IMG/VR virus record: IMGVR_UViG_3300024308_000188
Coordinates: 150,527 to 214,526 of that record
From: a virus
Length of the DNA stretch: 64,000 bases
Reading direction: 5' to 3' (one strand)
In this document: positions 18,955 through 36,941 of the stretch, piece after piece
How the letters are laid out: each line of letters starts with the position of its first letter
How positions within the stretch are numbered: position 1 is the stretch's first letter
Notes under the pieces: generated by a model
Seen by the model: only the letters and a program-made list of their open reading frames with translations
The model's database searches: none
Told to the model about the DNA's origin: nothing
Translations under genes and position numbers: made by a program

Positions 18955-19764
18955 ATGTTTAGTTCACCAGAAAATAGTCCTTATGGAGTGTTGCCAGAAC
19001 ATACAATACCTTTGGTTGAAATAGAAGAATCTTTGTGTGAACCTTATATTCATGGTCAAACAGTAAAAGTCAAAAAGCTTCCAAGGTTTCAACCAGTATG
19101 TCACATTATAATTCGCCCACCTGAAGCCAAACAAGTTGTTGTAGAAGAAAGTTTCGAGCAAGATTTTATTCAACAAAAATACACAACTGTAGATCTCAGC
19201 AAACTTTCTCGCTACAAAAGAACAGCCGAACAAAAAGAAGTCATGCAGGAAGTTGACATCGAAGTTGATATTTCTCCACCTGACAATCTGATACGTTTAA
19301 AAACTGCCCATATAAAAAACTTTCCTAAAATACTTCAAACTAAATCAGGTTTGATAAAAGATGTTTTTATAAAAGAATATCTTCCTCAAATTTTAGGTAT
19401 TGATGAAGCTTCTGCTTATGTAGAGGCATTCGCAAAAGACGGACTCGGCTTATCTGAATTTGAGATAAGCGTTGATATGATTCCATATATTCATAACGCG
19501 ATCAAGACTGATTTCGTTAGCCTTATCCTAAAACAATTGACTAACCTAAGTGAAGAAACCCGACAAGCTTATATTATAGGTTATGTAACTGATGCTCTTG
19601 CATCTGCGCGTTATCTAGCTAAAAATAATCTTGCGGCTCAACAGCACAGACGTTACCAAGAAAGACTGGACAATCCTGCCGGATATGTTGCTGGCGTTGG
19701 AATGAAAAAATCTAAGGTAATTCGTGATGGTAAAGCAGATAAAGAAAAAGAAGCCAATAGGTAA
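18955..19764 (+). CDS. Unknown protein upstream of terminase, 269 aa
   Basis: Start at ATG 18955 (GGGGAAAT before it) rather than an in-frame GTG at 18925 that lies inside the terminator. The N-terminal 130 residues are Pro-rich and extended (CHIIIRPPEAKQVVV); the rest is helical (EIDEASAYVEAF-like stretch, KTDFVSLILKQLTNLSEETR). It overlaps the terminase start by 38 bases. Position makes a small-terminase role worth testing, but no helix-turn-helix or other proof is visible. Confidence 0.65.
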   Translation: MFSSPENSPYGVLPEHTIPLVEIEESLCEPYIHGQTVKVKKLPRFQPVCHIIIRPPEAKQVVVEESFEQDFIQQKYTTVDLSKLSRYKRTAEQKEVMQEVDIEVDISPPDNLIRLKTAHIKNFPKILQTKSGLIKDVFIKEYLPQILGIDEASAYVEAFAKDGLGLSEFEISVDMIPYIHNAIKTDFVSLILKQLTNLSEETRQAYIIGYVTDALASARYLAKNNLAAQQHRRYQERLDNPAGYVAGVGMKKSKVIRDGKADKEKEANR

Positions 19765-22675
19765 AGCCAAAAAACCTAGTGCAATTAAACCATTAGATGA
19801 TTTATTCAATTTGTTGGGTGAAGATGACGATGAAAGCGTCACAATAGTACATGACGACGATGACGACGATGATGGCCATCATTTTAAGCATGATTTAGAA
19901 GATGGCCATGAAGTCTTAGATCTCGAACAACTTATATATGATGAACTGGATAATGCTAGGCCGATCTCTAAAGATTTGCGTATAGACGACAGTTCTATGC
20001 CGATAGCAAAAAACTTCTTACAGTTTGCTAATGATGAAAGTTTTCTTAGTTCCACGCCTTATCTCGAACAGGCCATAATAGGTATCAAACTTTTTGCTGA
20101 GTATTGTCCAAGACCTGAATGTTCTGATTTAAAATGGTTTTCTGATGATGGACATTCGGCAGATGAACCATTAGCAACACTTTCCAGAAAAGTGTCTCTT
20201 TTACATCATGGTGTTTGTCCAAAGTGTGGCGCACGTAAATCCGAACTTATTGCAAGTGGTGAACTAAATTTCTATAACGAACTTGTAGTTGTTGCTGGAC
20301 AGCGTTGTGTTACTGGCGATACTCATATTTTCACTGGAAAAGGTATTGAAAGAATTGGAGATCTTGTTCCGCGCAATGCTAAACAAGGTTACAATGATTT
20401 TAAATATCCTGTATTCAACGGTGAAAAGCTTGAGACAACAAAAGAATTTTATATAACGAAAGCCGAACACGTTTACACACTACAGCTGGATAATGGATCT
20501 ACTTTAAGTGGAACTCTTGACCATCCTGTTCGTGTTGAAAAGTTTGGTTATCGTGCTTTGCACCAAATAAAAGCTGGTGAGCAAGTTGTTGTACAAACCG
20601 GACAAAATTGTTGGGGAAATTTAAACTGCCCTTATACAGTTGATGAATTACGCTCTATAGGATCTGATATTACAAATCGACTAGACTTGTTGGTTGATAC
20701 AGTAGCTGGTAAAGGCTTACATCCAGATCTTTTAAAATACAGTATGAAAAATTGTCGAGAATTTCTACGTGGAGTATTCGACAACAACACAACGCAATAT
20801 CCTGTTGCTTACCACCAATTAGTAAAAGATGTTTATGCCTTGCTGCTAAACATTGGCATTCTGCCTACAATTCAAAATACCTCAGAAACAATCTCCATTT
20901 CTATCTCAAACGAAAACCGAAATATATTATTTGATGATCACAGATCCGTCAAAAGAAATCGGCATCTTTTATCCGTTGTTAGCTGCGGAGTTACAGATAG
21001 AACTGAAGTCATGTACGATGTTACAATGCCTATCACACAACATTTTATTACCAATGGCATTGATTCACATAACAGCGGCAAGTCTGCGGTTGTTACCATG
21101 ATAAGTGCTTATATAGTGCATTTGTTTTTGATGTGTGGTAAGCCCACTGAACTTTTCAATATTCGTAATAACGAAATATTGCATGGAACTTTCCTTGCGC
21201 TTACACTTGGACAAGCAACACAAAACTTATGGGAACCTTTTCTCGGTTACATAAATAATAGTCCTTGGTTTAAAGCTTATCACTTAATGCTTCGTCGTTA
21301 TGAAAAGAAATACGGAGAAGTTCTACTAAAGCTAAAAGATACCTTTATTGATTATCGTCATAGAAACCTTAAACTTTATCCGGCAACTCCAGACAAACGT
21401 GTACTTCGTGGTCGTACTCGTATACTCGGAGCCCTGGATGAACTTGGGTGGTTTGATTCTAATCGTGATAGTAAAAAAGTTAAGGATAACGCGCACGAAG
21501 TTTATAAAGCAATGTCAAACAGTTTGGCTACTGCCAGACAAAGTGAAAAGCGTTTAGTCGAACAAGGCTTTGATCAATTCATGTTAACCGGATATATGTT
21601 GAACGTAAGTTCTCCAAATAATATCCGTGACAAAATCATGGAACTTTATAAACAAAGTTTGGGCAGTCGTAAGATGCTTGGCCTTCATCGTCCAACATGG
21701 AAAATGAATCCACATATTCCATTTGATGGTGAATTGATACGTGAAGAATATCGTAAAGATCCTATTGGAGCTGCACGAGACTTTGGAGCCGAGCCAAGTT
21801 TATCAAGTAATCCGTTTATGAGTAATCACAGATTACTTGAAGAGACTGTTAGAACTAGCGGTAAAAATTGGGTTAAATATGCGCTCAAAACTATTCGTAT
21901 CAGTCGAGACGAAAAGCACAGAACCGTTGAGTTACTTAACGTCAAACAAAATGGCTCTAGGAGTGTTATGGCTATTGATGCTGGATTCTCTAACAACTGT
22001 TTTGCCATAGTCTGTGGATCTTTGCATGATGGTATTCCTCACATGGATTGCCTTTTAGAAATAAATGCTCTTCCTGGTATTCCAATAAGTTTCACTTCTG
22101 TTTTTGCAGATGCTGTACTTCCACTTATTGAACAGCGCAATTGCAGTATTCTTTTGGCAGACCGTTGGAATAGTATCAAGTTATTGCAAGATGCTCAAGC
22201 CACCTATGATAGTTTAAAAGTGTCAGGTCAATATAGCTTACGCTACAACGATATGTACGAAGTTAAAACAGCTATTGAAATGGGTCAATTCAAAATACCA
22301 AACATTGAAGATCCTAGCATTAAAAATATCCTTGCTAGTAACCTCGATGATTATCCAGCGTGTTTTGAAGGTAGACCTGTACATCATTTGCTGCTGCAAC
22401 TTGCAACCGTTGTTGATGTTGGTAAGAAATCTGTTGAAAAAGGAAATGGATTCACCGATGATCTTTGGAGAGCAGCCGCGCTTTGTTATTTTGGTTTAAC
22501 TAATCCAGATTATCAAGAGCATTTGGTTGGTGAGGTTGAAAGTAAAAAAGTTCAACCACCGTTAGCCCTGTTGAAGAAACTCACGGGCGGAATGAATGCG
22601 CTTACTGTTACAACCGGAAACAAAACGTATTCGGGTTCGACAAAATTCATCGGTGTAAAACGAACAGGAAAATAA
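19727..22675 (+). CDS. terL: Terminase large subunit containing an intein
   Basis: 982 residues including a 256-residue intein (about residues 194-449). Once spliced, the P-loop reads VVVAGQR-SGKSAVV. Walker B with its catalytic Glu is RILGALDELGWF. The coupling region is GYMLNVSSPNN, followed by RPTWKMNPHIPFDGELIREE and KDPIGAARDFG. The C-terminal RNase H-like nuclease carries AIDAGFSNN, LLADRWNS and FTDDLWRAA, supplying three Asp residues. An Asp-rich run (DDDDDDDGHH) marks the N-terminus. The enzyme cuts concatemers and pumps DNA through the portal. ATG 19727 and GTG 19724 are both possible starts. Splicing is required to rebuild the ATP site. Confidence 0.95.
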   Translation: MVKQIKKKKPIGKAKKPSAIKPLDDLFNLLGEDDDESVTIVHDDDDDDDGHHFKHDLEDGHEVLDLEQLIYDELDNARPISKDLRIDDSSMPIAKNFLQFANDESFLSSTPYLEQAIIGIKLFAEYCPRPECSDLKWFSDDGHSADEPLATLSRKVSLLHHGVCPKCGARKSELIASGELNFYNELVVVAGQRCVTGDTHIFTGKGIERIGDLVPRNAKQGYNDFKYPVFNGEKLETTKEFYITKAEHVYTLQLDNGSTLSGTLDHPVRVEKFGYRALHQIKAGEQVVVQTGQNCWGNLNCPYTVDELRSIGSDITNRLDLLVDTVAGKGLHPDLLKYSMKNCREFLRGVFDNNTTQYPVAYHQLVKDVYALLLNIGILPTIQNTSETISISISNENRNILFDDHRSVKRNRHLLSVVSCGVTDRTEVMYDVTMPITQHFITNGIDSHNSGKSAVVTMISAYIVHLFLMCGKPTELFNIRNNEILHGTFLALTLGQATQNLWEPFLGYINNSPWFKAYHLMLRRYEKKYGEVLLKLKDTFIDYRHRNLKLYPATPDKRVLRGRTRILGALDELGWFDSNRDSKKVKDNAHEVYKAMSNSLATARQSEKRLVEQGFDQFMLTGYMLNVSSPNNIRDKIMELYKQSLGSRKMLGLHRPTWKMNPHIPFDGELIREEYRKDPIGAARDFGAEPSLSSNPFMSNHRLLEETVRTSGKNWVKYALKTIRISRDEKHRTVELLNVKQNGSRSVMAIDAGFSNNCFAIVCGSLHDGIPHMDCLLEINALPGIPISFTSVFADAVLPLIEQRNCSILLADRWNSIKLLQDAQATYDSLKVSGQYSLRYNDMYEVKTAIEMGQFKIPNIEDPSIKNILASNLDDYPACFEGRPVHHLLLQLATVVDVGKKSVEKGNGFTDDLWRAAALCYFGLTNPDYQEHLVGEVESKKVQPPLALLKKLTGGMNALTVTTGNKTYSGSTKFIGVKRTGK
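20306..21073 (+). other. Intein within terminase P-loop
   Basis: Begins with Cys (CVTGDTHIFTGKGIERIGDL, block A), has block B GTLDHPVRV with the conserved His, and ends YDVTMPITQHFITNGIDSHN before Ser (blocks F and G, His-Asn then +1 Ser). The middle KNCREFLRGVFDNNTTQ and VYALLLNIGILPTI look like a worn-down LAGLIDADG-type domain whose acidic active-site positions are replaced by Asn, so homing activity is probably lost. All splicing residues are present, so it should still splice. Confidence 0.93.
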
Positions 22676-34745: not shown

Positions 34746-35586
34746 AAACTGGCTTACTAATTGTTTTGGTGTTGAACACACAAATGACAAAAGTGAACGC
34801 AGTTTTCGTTTTGCAGAAGAATGTGTAGAATTGTGTCAGGCTATAGGTTTATCGCGTGACCAAATGAATAGTATTTTAGATCACGTTTATAGCCGACCAA
34901 AAGGTGAAGTAGATCAGGAAGCAGCAGGTACACTGATCACATTATTATCAGTGTGTGATTTGCATAGCGTTTCACTTGAATCAATTTTTAAAAGTGAAAT
35001 GAATCGCGCTGAAAATAATATTGAGGCTATTCGTGCTAAGCATAATACAAAACCTGCACATTTGGCCAAACATATTTCTTATTCACAAAATCAAGAAATT
35101 TTAAATCGATCAAAGATAAAGCACGTTACTAAGAAATTGTGTGATTTCTTTAACGCACCTATTTCCTTTGCTTTTCACATGGGAACCGCATCTTCGGAAT
35201 ATTTCGCAATAAGTGTTAAATCTATTTCAGCAGTTATTCAGGCAGATCCTACATTGCTGGACATAAGGGTATATAAAGAGTGGCGCGAAAAACAACCAAA
35301 ACTGTTTTTCTTGGATTCTTATACCACTATAGAAAGAATCACCGGCATCTTTGAAGGCATTAAACTTGATAAGAAACAGACTAAATTTTGGGTAACTCGC
35401 ATTGCACCAAACTCAAAAGATTTGAATAATATAGTAGAGCTTACGGAAGCTCTGGACTTGGACTCAATTGGTTTTTGCTTACAAGGAATTGCATTTCCAA
35501 AGGTTGTTCAGTGTGAGTTCGGTAGCCCTGTTCCATCAGACAATGAATACTTATTTATATTCAATAAACAAATATTGAATGACTGA
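34714..35586 (+). CDS. MazG-like pyrophosphohydrolase with extra C-terminal domain
   Basis: 290 residues. Start at ATG 34714 (CAGGAGAAAG before it). The N-terminal 105 residues have FAEECVELCQAIGL (Glu35, Glu36, Glu39) and RPKGEVDQEAAGTLITLL, the acidic metal sites of the all-alpha NTP-PPase family, which hydrolyses NTPs to NMP and PPi. The second half (about 110-290) is unrecognised (ISFAFHMGTASSEYFAISVK, TIERITGIFEGIKLDKK). A possible role in nucleotide pool control during infection. The last acidic position of the motif is Gly rather than Asp. Confidence 0.75.
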   Translation: MNLQQMKVRVRNWLTNCFGVEHTNDKSERSFRFAEECVELCQAIGLSRDQMNSILDHVYSRPKGEVDQEAAGTLITLLSVCDLHSVSLESIFKSEMNRAENNIEAIRAKHNTKPAHLAKHISYSQNQEILNRSKIKHVTKKLCDFFNAPISFAFHMGTASSEYFAISVKSISAVIQADPTLLDIRVYKEWREKQPKLFFLDSYTTIERITGIFEGIKLDKKQTKFWVTRIAPNSKDLNNIVELTEALDLDSIGFCLQGIAFPKVVQCEFGSPVPSDNEYLFIFNKQILND

Positions 35587-35595
35587 GGGTAAATT

Positions 35596-36429
35596 ATGCA
35601 ATCTTTTTTCCAATTTTGTACAAAATACCATGATGGAATGTGGCCTGATTTAATTTTGATCGGAAGTCAGATATTCGGTCAAGTTAAGCCTGATGAATTC
35701 TTAAAAAGAGACGGTATAAACATTCCGAAACCTTGCACTTATTTAGATGTTGGTAACTTGCAGTTAGATGCTAGTTACTACAGGGAACAGGCTTTGACAT
35801 CTAGCCTTCTTATAGGTCAAAGATCCGGTAAATCTTATTTGTTAAGAGCTTTAGTGAGCTATATATCTAGCTTCTCAGAAGAATTTAATTTAGGTCAGAA
35901 TTCTACACAGTCAAAAGATTATTTTCATATTGATGTGCCGAATGCAAATGTTGAAGATCATGTAAGAAGTATATGTGAAACTTTAACAGCCTTTAAAGCA
36001 GCCTTTACTGTGGAAATGTTTGAATCAGGAAATCAGACAGCTGCACGAATTCTAATGAATTCTGGATTCACCGTGGTTTTGTGTGATGGTATTCCAAATT
36101 CAGGAAACGCTGATTATTTTGAACTTGGAAGATGTATTGGTTATATATCTGAAGAGTTAGCTTGGAGATATAAAGCAGTAAAAAATAAATCAATGAATCC
36201 AATTGACCGACTTAATTCTTTAAAGATGTCGAGCATTGCACATAATGCACCTCTCTTTATTTCGATAAGTTCGGTTTTCGATGATGATACCTTTTTAAAA
36301 TGTCGCGTTAATTTATTCATACGTCGCGCTACTTGGGAAGTCAACCCAAATATAAAAGGATCTTTACTTGGAGAGTTATTCATCGCAGATCCTACAGGAG
36401 CCATGCGTGATTTTGGATCACGAGTTTAA
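35596..36429 (+). CDS. Stand-alone terminase-like ATPase (no intein, no nuclease)
   Basis: 277 residues. Walker A LLIGQRSGKSYLLRALV (Gly74 to Ser80) repeats the terminase P-loop GQRSGKS exactly, without the intein. Near the C-terminus RATWEVNPNI, then ELFIADPTGAMRDFGSRV, matches the terminase segment RPTWKMNPHI, then REEYRKDPIGAARDFG. The chain stops where the nuclease would begin. NAPLFISISSVFDDD could be the coupling motif. It may be an ancestral duplication now serving as an accessory or decoy packaging motor. Last gene of the plus-strand run. Homology is read by eye. Confidence 0.75.
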   Translation: MQSFFQFCTKYHDGMWPDLILIGSQIFGQVKPDEFLKRDGINIPKPCTYLDVGNLQLDASYYREQALTSSLLIGQRSGKSYLLRALVSYISSFSEEFNLGQNSTQSKDYFHIDVPNANVEDHVRSICETLTAFKAAFTVEMFESGNQTAARILMNSGFTVVLCDGIPNSGNADYFELGRCIGYISEELAWRYKAVKNKSMNPIDRLNSLKMSSIAHNAPLFISISSVFDDDTFLKCRVNLFIRRATWEVNPNIKGSLLGELFIADPTGAMRDFGSRV

Positions 36430-36439
36430 ATTTACTTGT

Positions 36440-36472
36440 TGAAAAAAGAAAAGGGAACCGTAATGGCTCCCC
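36440..36472 (-). terminator. Terminator at the convergence of the two strands
   Basis: On the minus strand GGGAGCC, ATTAC, GGTTCCC (one G-T pair) is followed by TTTTCTTTTTT, a strong intrinsic terminator for the leftward operon. On the plus strand the same hairpin has only a short pyrimidine tail, so it may act both ways. Confidence 0.85.
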
Positions 36473-36476
36473 TTTC

Positions 36477-36941
36477 TCATATTGCTACGACTAATGCAAG
36501 TGCAGTAATTATTTTCAGTGTTATGCTTTCAATACTATTCCGCAATTGTTCTTCCCTTCTGCTTTCCCTTTCATCATTCAAAACAACTTCCATTTTCAAT
36601 GCTCTGTATTCTTCCAGCTCAGCAAGTTCACGTATTAAGTTTGCGCGTTGGACAGTTAATTCTAAAATTAAATTGGCCTGTTCCACAAGTGCTGCATTAG
36701 ATTCAGCACTGATATAAGCTTGCTCTACTTTTACTAAGTCGTCAGGATCTACAAGTGCCCATGTTTTTCCATTTGCATCTTTATAACTTCCTACATCATG
36801 CGTGAAGGCTTCTGGAATACTCACAGGAGTTACTTCTTTGTGTACGAATTCTGCAATCTTTTTGGTCTGTATTTCTCTCGGCTCTGGCGCACTAGCACAT
36901 CCAAAAAGAAACATTGATAAAACAATTAGAGCGTATTTCAT
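36477..36941 (-). CDS. Candidate unimolecular spanin (lipoprotein with C-terminal membrane segment)
   Basis: 154 residues. Start at ATG 36941 with AGGGGA before it (longer upstream form rejected). The N-terminus MKYALIVLSMFLFGC is a signal peptide with lipobox LFGC (Cys15). The middle is charged and helical (EQANLILELTVQRANLIREL, RESRREEQLRNS), and the last 18 residues SITLKIITALALVVAI are hydrophobic. Outer-membrane anchor plus inner-membrane anchor is the layout of u-spanins such as T1 gp11, which fuse the two membranes at lysis. A Rz1-type lipoprotein is the alternative. Confidence 0.7.
   Translation of the reverse strand: MKYALIVLSMFLFGCASAPEPREIQTKKIAEFVHKEVTPVSIPEAFTHDVGSYKDANGKTWALVDPDDLVKVEQAYISAESNAALVEQANLILELTVQRANLIRELAELEEYRALKMEVVLNDERESRREEQLRNSIESITLKIITALALVVAI

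Follow-up and report, generated by a model that had tools for sequence, protein, structure and literature searches.

Tailed-phage packaging motors are, to our knowledge, taken to be rings of a single type of TerL. Among the described systems, the TerL of Lu11/RSL1-like and Erwinia jumbo phages (PHROG 17415) compares most directly with the protein considered here, P0001: both have the P-loop GQRSGKS, a lid of the form TWxxNP...A.RDFG, the motif III pair SS and, likely, N-terminal helices. Unlike this TerL, P0001 is encoded at a separate locus, lacks the nuclease, the zinc cysteines and the LRGxTR motif, and has probably lost the Walker B glutamate. That an ATPase-plus-lid module can stand alone is evident from the isolated TerL ATPase domains of P74-26 and D6E, which are laboratory constructs in contrast to P0001, and from the phi29-type ATPases; all of these proteins hydrolyse ATP, unlike P0001 as interpreted below. 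The phi29-type packaging ATPase is the only motor of the phage, and the role of P0001 would differ from that of such a sole motor because the virus has a full TerL. Phrase searches of an open-access library did not retrieve any account of a terminase resembling P0001, whether termed second, duplicated, paralogous, truncated or pseudo.

The window analyzed here comprises 64,000 nucleotides and is the final 64 kb of a virus record of 214,526 bases (IMGVR_UViG_3300024308_000188). The TerL of this virus (983 aa including an intein, 19724-22675, plus strand; PHROG 17415, 940.6 bits) has a P-loop that is split by 256 residues between GQR and SGKS (20306-21073, plus strand; Pfam Intein_splicing, E 1.4e-7, with 31.9 bits, which is under the curated cut-off of 35.8). 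This insertion site is common to Lu11, Y3 and many relatives. Among 80 TerL relatives collected with no motif filter, GQRSGKS is whole in 39 and split by an intein in 37, other residues are present in three and one is unresolved; TWxxNP is found in 74. The TerL of G034 (L061:2302-4695) has GQRLAKT in place of GQRSGKS, so that alanine replaces the usual second glycine of the P-loop, and other TerLs may hold inserts elsewhere, as suggested by an intein-like sequence seen by eye after SPWF in L055.

Several other genes contain TerL-like segments. Directly after TerL, the window encodes a 227-aa protein (P0007, 22718-23401) that resembles the TerL core without the P-loop, with NFLEF, DSPWF and (by eye) LMRG in the TerL order. 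This protein scores 13.8 bits with the TerL ATPase HMM described below (E 2.5e-4 among 262 ORFs; reached by none of 1000 shuffles); a profile-profile comparison is weak (E 0.03, and nothing in the global mode), and there is no match in INPHARED. A 164-aa counterpart follows TerL in G003 (L003:12797-13291), and P0007 may be a degenerate tandem copy. In G037, an 86-aa ORF (L118:5292-5552) contains LRGETRYFAHIDELAFF, a stretch of the TerL Walker B type (22.5 bits), and after it a short portion similar to the portal gene of the window (E 9e-4); the preceding ORF, too, matches the portal weakly (E 0.003). Another 227-aa ORF, in G016 (L119:4461-5144), contains RVMRGRTQHFATLEDIGY, which resembles the LRG/Walker B stretch of TerL (15.3 bits).

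The gene for P0001 (35596-36429, plus strand) is located outside the packaging cluster, with terL approximately 13 kb and the portal gene 10 kb away. Its frame of 277 codons plus a stop is intact and translatable: the ATG lies 6 nt 3' of a ribosome-binding-like GAGGG (35585-35589, plus strand, as read directly from the sequence) which overlaps the stop of the upstream gene, and the codon usage resembles that of 13 other window genes. P0001 appears to be the last gene of a rightward cluster. A hairpin 3' of the gene (36447-36477, plus strand; fold -12.2 kcal/mol) is a possible transcript end and is absent from the list produced by a simple terminator scan; the next gene downstream runs leftward and has weak matches only, one of them Rz1-like at E 0.09. 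The upstream genes show MazG-like and weak kinase-like matches, and none of the neighbours is a recognised nuclease. The immediate upstream neighbour (P0003, 34714-35586, plus strand, in a frame that is open from 34693) matches PHROG 8593 (E 7e-34) and has a MazG-like N-terminal part (weak match, E 0.024). Further upstream, a small gene with a weak AAA_33 match (P0004, 34224-34745) has a homologue at the same place in G003 and shows 8% DNA difference, mostly synonymous, between the near-twin records. In the near-twin record (G001, 319,518 bases), P0001 is intact and differs by one synonymous change in 834 bases. This is weak evidence, since the difference is 0 to 8% in the genes around it; given that three nearby genes have no differences and others up to 8%, purifying selection was rejected as a conclusion from this comparison.

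Sequence comparison provides good support for homology of the P-loop and the lid of P0001 with those of the Lu11/RSL1-like TerL superfamily. The P-loop (GQRSGKS, aa 74-80; 35815-35835, plus strand) consists of the same seven residues as in TerL relatives and in the virus's own TerL, here uninterrupted. The lid segment (IRRATWEVNPNI...DPTGAMRDFGS, aa 242-275; 36319-36420, plus strand) was delineated by identity to the virus's own TerL and to the L002 TerL, with 51% identity to the latter over 35 residues and an HMM domain of 21.0 bits. The pairwise alignment with the spliced terminase that the initial annotation suggested matches aa 234-275 to TerL 390-433 with 45% identity over 44 residues (BLASTP E 3e-8; Smith-Waterman score 88, compared to a maximum of 61 in 500 shuffles). 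The frame ends two residues past this match, where TerL continues into its nuclease, so that the C-terminal RNase H-like nuclease domain is missing. The initial annotation had described an intein-free terminase P-loop and a stop at the point where the nuclease should begin, and both descriptions are borne out; its 'near copy' of a terminase segment is indeed the TerL lid, but with the limited identity given above.

To place these matches in the context of the whole protein, we used an HMM for which 58 TerL ATPase domains, with the inteins removed, were thinned to 36 at a threshold of 90% identity; the TerLs had been chosen by the presence of the GQRSGKS P-loop and W-x-x-NP. P0001 scores 31.7 bits with this HMM, whereas the best of 1000 shuffles reaches 8.3. 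Among the 262 non-nested ORFs (at least 50 aa) of the virus record, it is the second-best match (E 8.9e-10), between TerL (506.7 bits) and P0007. The score drops to 9.6 without the lid and to -2.4 without both the lid and the P-loop. The N-terminal part (aa 1-70) is marginal, with 47 of 1000 shuffles as good, and whole-length TerL homology is rejected for the middle of the protein (aa 81-238), for which 346 of 1000 shuffles are as good. By its sequence features, P0001 is classified as a stand-alone terminase-type domain that consists of a Walker A P-loop and a C-terminal lid, with no nuclease.

Two further small nuclease-less proteins, each combining a P-loop with a WExNP lid, were identified in runs of the TerL profile over 33 records and of the lid profile over 46 records. 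P0006 (210 aa, G034, IMGVR_UViG_3300037313_000284, L122:3653-4285; motifs AGRQAGKT, VVFIDN and TWEMNP) is outside the lid profile and was matched at E 3.6e-4, whereas P0005 (176 aa, G048, IMGVR_UViG_3300044719_000048, L117:4586-5116; motifs GQRSGKG, IIDEA and WELNP) is itself a row of that profile. P0006 shares with P0001 the small size, the lack of a nuclease, a P-loop, motif III, the WExNP lid and, in the alignment favoured below, VV-x-x-D without the glutamate, but differs in the residues of the P-loop, has a shorter middle and is encoded near a RuvC-like resolvase. P0005 is likewise small and nuclease-less, with similar P-loop and lid, but keeps the Walker B glutamate, which P0001 has probably lost, and its gene overlaps that of an SbcD-like nuclease.

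The Smith-Waterman score of P0001 with P0006 is 56 with standard gaps (1 of 300 shuffles as good), 110 with permissive gaps and 85 with permissive gaps when the lid is removed (0 of 500 shuffles in each case). When P0006 was compared with the 209 ORFs of the P0001 record, the best z-score under both gap settings was that of P0001 (5.5 standard, 6.2 permissive), ahead of the next ORF (3.2 and 4.2) and of TerL (2.8 and 3.2), with raw permissive scores that are close (P0001 110, TerL 109 and one other ORF 109). A plain P0006 search of the near-twin record did not pick up P0001 at E <= 10, and the P0006 query over 46 records retrieved itself and one TerL-sized frame (E 0.004). P0005 and P0006 align nearly end to end (Smith-Waterman 62, 0 of 300 shuffles), with 14 of 500 shuffles as good when the lid is removed and permissive gaps are used; P0001 and P0005 match only weakly once the lid is removed, 17 of 500 shuffles scoring as high. 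From the pairwise scores, the 209-ORF control and the weak P0001/P0005 match, we group P0001 and P0006 as a tentative family, with P0005 as a looser third member. Less firmly, the sequences suggest that P0001 and P0006 form a distinct small family in which the aspartate of Walker B is no longer followed by the catalytic glutamate. No further copy of P0006 was found in IMG/VR by exact peptides, and P0005 has a single match in INPHARED, at E 3. A match of P0006 in Colwellia phage 9A (E 0.003) was set aside as it lies inside an annotated DNA primase; a lid-like match in a 136-aa frame of G029 (E 0.009) and two weaker ones in frames of 36 and 93 aa (E 0.07 and 0.11) were discounted as probable chance matches.

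Among the 36 TerLs, 38 columns show at least 97% conservation. P0001 keeps 17 of them in every one of three MAFFT alignments, including the seven P-loop residues, the tyrosine after them, the motif III SS and the lid T-W-N-P; the P-loop and W-x-x-NP columns are conserved by construction because the 36 TerLs were chosen by those motifs. The motif III-like strand (LFISISS, aa 220-226; 36253-36273, plus strand) has its SS aligned with the invariant TerL SS in all three MAFFT runs and lies opposite HIVAMTS of P0006. None of the four zinc cysteines is present, and LRGxTR, whose R235, G236, T238 and R239 all belong to the columns with at least 97% conservation, retains at most the G; the last alanine of the lid, A362 of TerL, corresponds to S275 in P0001. 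Such selective retention at approximately 20% overall identity argues for selection on nucleotide binding and the lid.

At most one residue of the Walker B DE is kept in each alignment of P0001 with the 36 TerLs, and the site shifts with the alignment. Against TerL, it falls at R179-C180 (L-INS-i and G-INS-i) or at E186-E187 (E-INS-i); against P0006, standard gaps place ID-R opposite ID-N, MAFFT places FTVEMFE opposite VVFIDN, and permissive gaps place TVVLCDG (aa 159-165; 36070-36090, plus strand) opposite TVVFIDN, with the aspartate retained and a glycine where the catalytic glutamate is expected (D164-G165). The glutamate is missing in most of these alignments, and two of them (E-INS-i and MAFFT with P0006) place one. 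We favour D164-G165, as a matter of judgement, because TVVLCDG, SEEL and IAH..P follow the order of TVVFIDN, AEEL and IAH..P in P0006, and regard TVVLCDG as the probable Walker B strand. Given the shifting site, the loss of the Walker B catalytic glutamate from P0001 is no more than probable.

The structure models of P0001, weak as they are, are compatible with a terminase-type ATPase domain. AlphaFold2 (AF2) with the single P0001 sequence yields a mean pLDDT of 37.1. When 34 TerL rows are supplied, the overall pLDDT is 51; both ends of the protein and the P-loop region are modelled well, as judged by block means (aa 1-30, 77-86; aa 71-90, 81-84; aa 241-277, 83-91), whereas aa 97-231 stay below 50. 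VIA ranks the isolated ATPase domain of P74-26 TerL first for the latter model (Z 6.0, 126 residues, rmsd 3.6; the next chain has 3.9), in a range (Z below 8) that, according to the warning of the tool, may reflect merely a common arrangement; Foldseek found nothing for the model at E <= 0.001. As TerL rows were used, the TerL likeness of the model is partly circular, and we count it as compatible evidence and not as proof.

P0001 itself is seen in one virus and its near twin. In INPHARED, tblastn with P0001 retrieved only the Lu11 TerL lid (E 0.7, two records of Lu11); a search of PDB sequences and an exact-peptide search of genome contigs gave no new relative, and in IMG/VR exact peptides recovered the near-twin record and one TerL. 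Of 50 TerL-bearing records searched with P0001, 32 match at E <= 10, and the matches listed cover the lid (query 237-276) and fall in frames whose length, 725 to 1184 aa, is that expected of TerL. The one exception (G021:12734-13048; query 47-155, 23% identity, E 0.013) contains two internal stop codons and was taken as chance. In the nearest distinct relative found (G003, with TerL 63% identical), both genes that flank P0001 are present and adjacent, and P0001 is missing; between them, directly after the homologue of P0003, which represents the conserved flank of the insertion, there is a hairpin and no ORF resembling P0001. The absence at this syntenic site indicates that P0001 is an accessory gene, either inserted here or lost there. 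In a tree of 107 confident columns, P0001 is placed beside the L002 TerL (support 0.66) and not beside the TerL of its own virus; this support is too weak to name a donor, but the tree gives no sign of a recent duplication of the virus's own TerL.

We tentatively favour the interpretation of P0001 as a terminase-derived, ATP-binding and possibly hydrolysis-impaired subunit that acts as an accessory or modulator of packaging. In terminases, Walker A binds the phosphates, the second acid of Walker B activates water and a P-loop arginine moves the lid (PMC7617512, PMC5727402); P0001 retains this arginine. P0001 would bind ATP and switch its lid but hydrolyse ATP poorly or not at all; it could, for instance, replace a TerL subunit at the portal or within the ring, or keep TerL away, and would be no second motor. 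Against this reading stand the location of the gene away from the packaging cluster, the poorly modelled middle region with its shifting Walker B site, the narrow lead of P0001 over TerL in the raw permissive score, the failure of the plain P0006 search to retrieve P0001, the DE that P0005 retains and the S275 of the lid. Because the residue required for ATP hydrolysis may be lost, P0001 is likelier to be a helper or a mimic than a second motor, and because it has no nuclease, an accessory or competing packaging subunit is its likeliest use, although this role is one that we infer. A broader generalization is more doubtful, namely that large phages sporadically carry nuclease-less, hydrolysis-dead terminase relatives whose task is to regulate or antagonize the packaging motor or, by mimicry, to blind immune systems that sense terminase.

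The genomic contexts of the two relatives bring up a different, rather unlikely role, in which P0001 is a terminase-derived small ATPase involved in DNA processing (recombination, or debranching prior to packaging) with the nuclease encoded elsewhere. A RuvC-like Holliday junction resolvase (PHROG 18317, E 1.5e-23) is encoded one gene after P0006, and the start of P0005 overlaps the stop of the SbcD-like nuclease gene. However, these are two contexts only, and they differ from each other, and P0001 has no recognised nuclease in its neighbourhood.

It is less probable still that P0001 is a TerL mimic that occupies bacterial TerL sensors (Avs/AVAST) without activating them and so blinds them. 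A solitary ATPase domain with a free P-loop and a lid would be a plausible decoy, the sporadic, accessory distribution fits such a function, and Avs1-4 are described as recognising TerL, the portal or another phage protein (PMC12931631). Nevertheless, the sequence ties P0001 to no Avs, and PADLOC gave nothing for P0001 at E <= 0.01. An open-library search for a phage-encoded terminase decoy against Avs led to no such protein; in the paper it retrieved, 'decoy' is used as a statistical term.

We assign a similarly low probability to P0001 being a decaying, functionless duplicate of a terminase. The losses of LRGxTR, the zinc cysteines, the nuclease and, probably, the Walker B glutamate would fit decay, as would the finding of P0001 in only one virus and its near twin, but the intact frame with a ribosome-binding site and normal codon use, the retention of the P-loop and lid despite the low overall identity, and the probable full-length stand-alone relative in another virus all speak against it. 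Convergent or chance TerL likeness of an unrelated P-loop protein is highly unlikely: the middle of P0001 shows no detectable likeness to TerL, there is no match to Pfam and the PHROG match comes through the lid alone (E 0.007), but the P-loop and the lid jointly score far above shuffles and occur in the TerL order.

The initial annotation had proposed that P0001 is a paralogous motor module, active ahead of the splicing of the intein-bearing TerL. We do find a terminase-type ATPase module that lacks a nuclease and is separate from TerL, but its derivation from the virus's own TerL is not upheld, P0006 being the closest full-length relative found and the tree being weak. When the TerL P-loops of 46 relatives were sorted by pattern, 22 were intein-bearing, 19 uninterrupted and five not classed, three of which then proved uninterrupted. 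In the 22 other intein-bearing relatives, a count that does not represent independent cases because several records are fragments or closely alike, no stand-alone lid was detected at better than E 0.1, and there was one 15-residue lid match at E 0.11. The TerL P-loops in the viruses that encode P0005 and P0006 are uninterrupted (GQRSGKS and GQRLAKT, respectively). Because the TerLs of the other carriers are uninterrupted and no carrier was found among the 22, the notion that the free P-loop of P0001 matters as a bypass of the intein is unsupported. An active second motor is the least probable of these readings, and very improbable in itself: the uninterrupted GQRSGKS, the two alignments that leave a glutamate near Walker B, and the increase in ATP hydrolysis of D6E without its nuclease domain (kcat from 7.8 to 458 per min; PMC5727402) would agree with it, but LRGxTR is gone, the glutamate is missing in the favoured alignment, and the intein comparison points the other way.

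A separate relative of TerL that naturally lacks the nuclease, keeps the nucleotide pocket and the lid and is perhaps devoid of the catalytic glutamate would represent a pseudo-motor subunit occurring in nature. With P0001, the ideas of mixed rings, inhibition of the motor or mimicry towards immunity would become open to direct tests, and it shows how TerL modules may be reused in large phage genomes.
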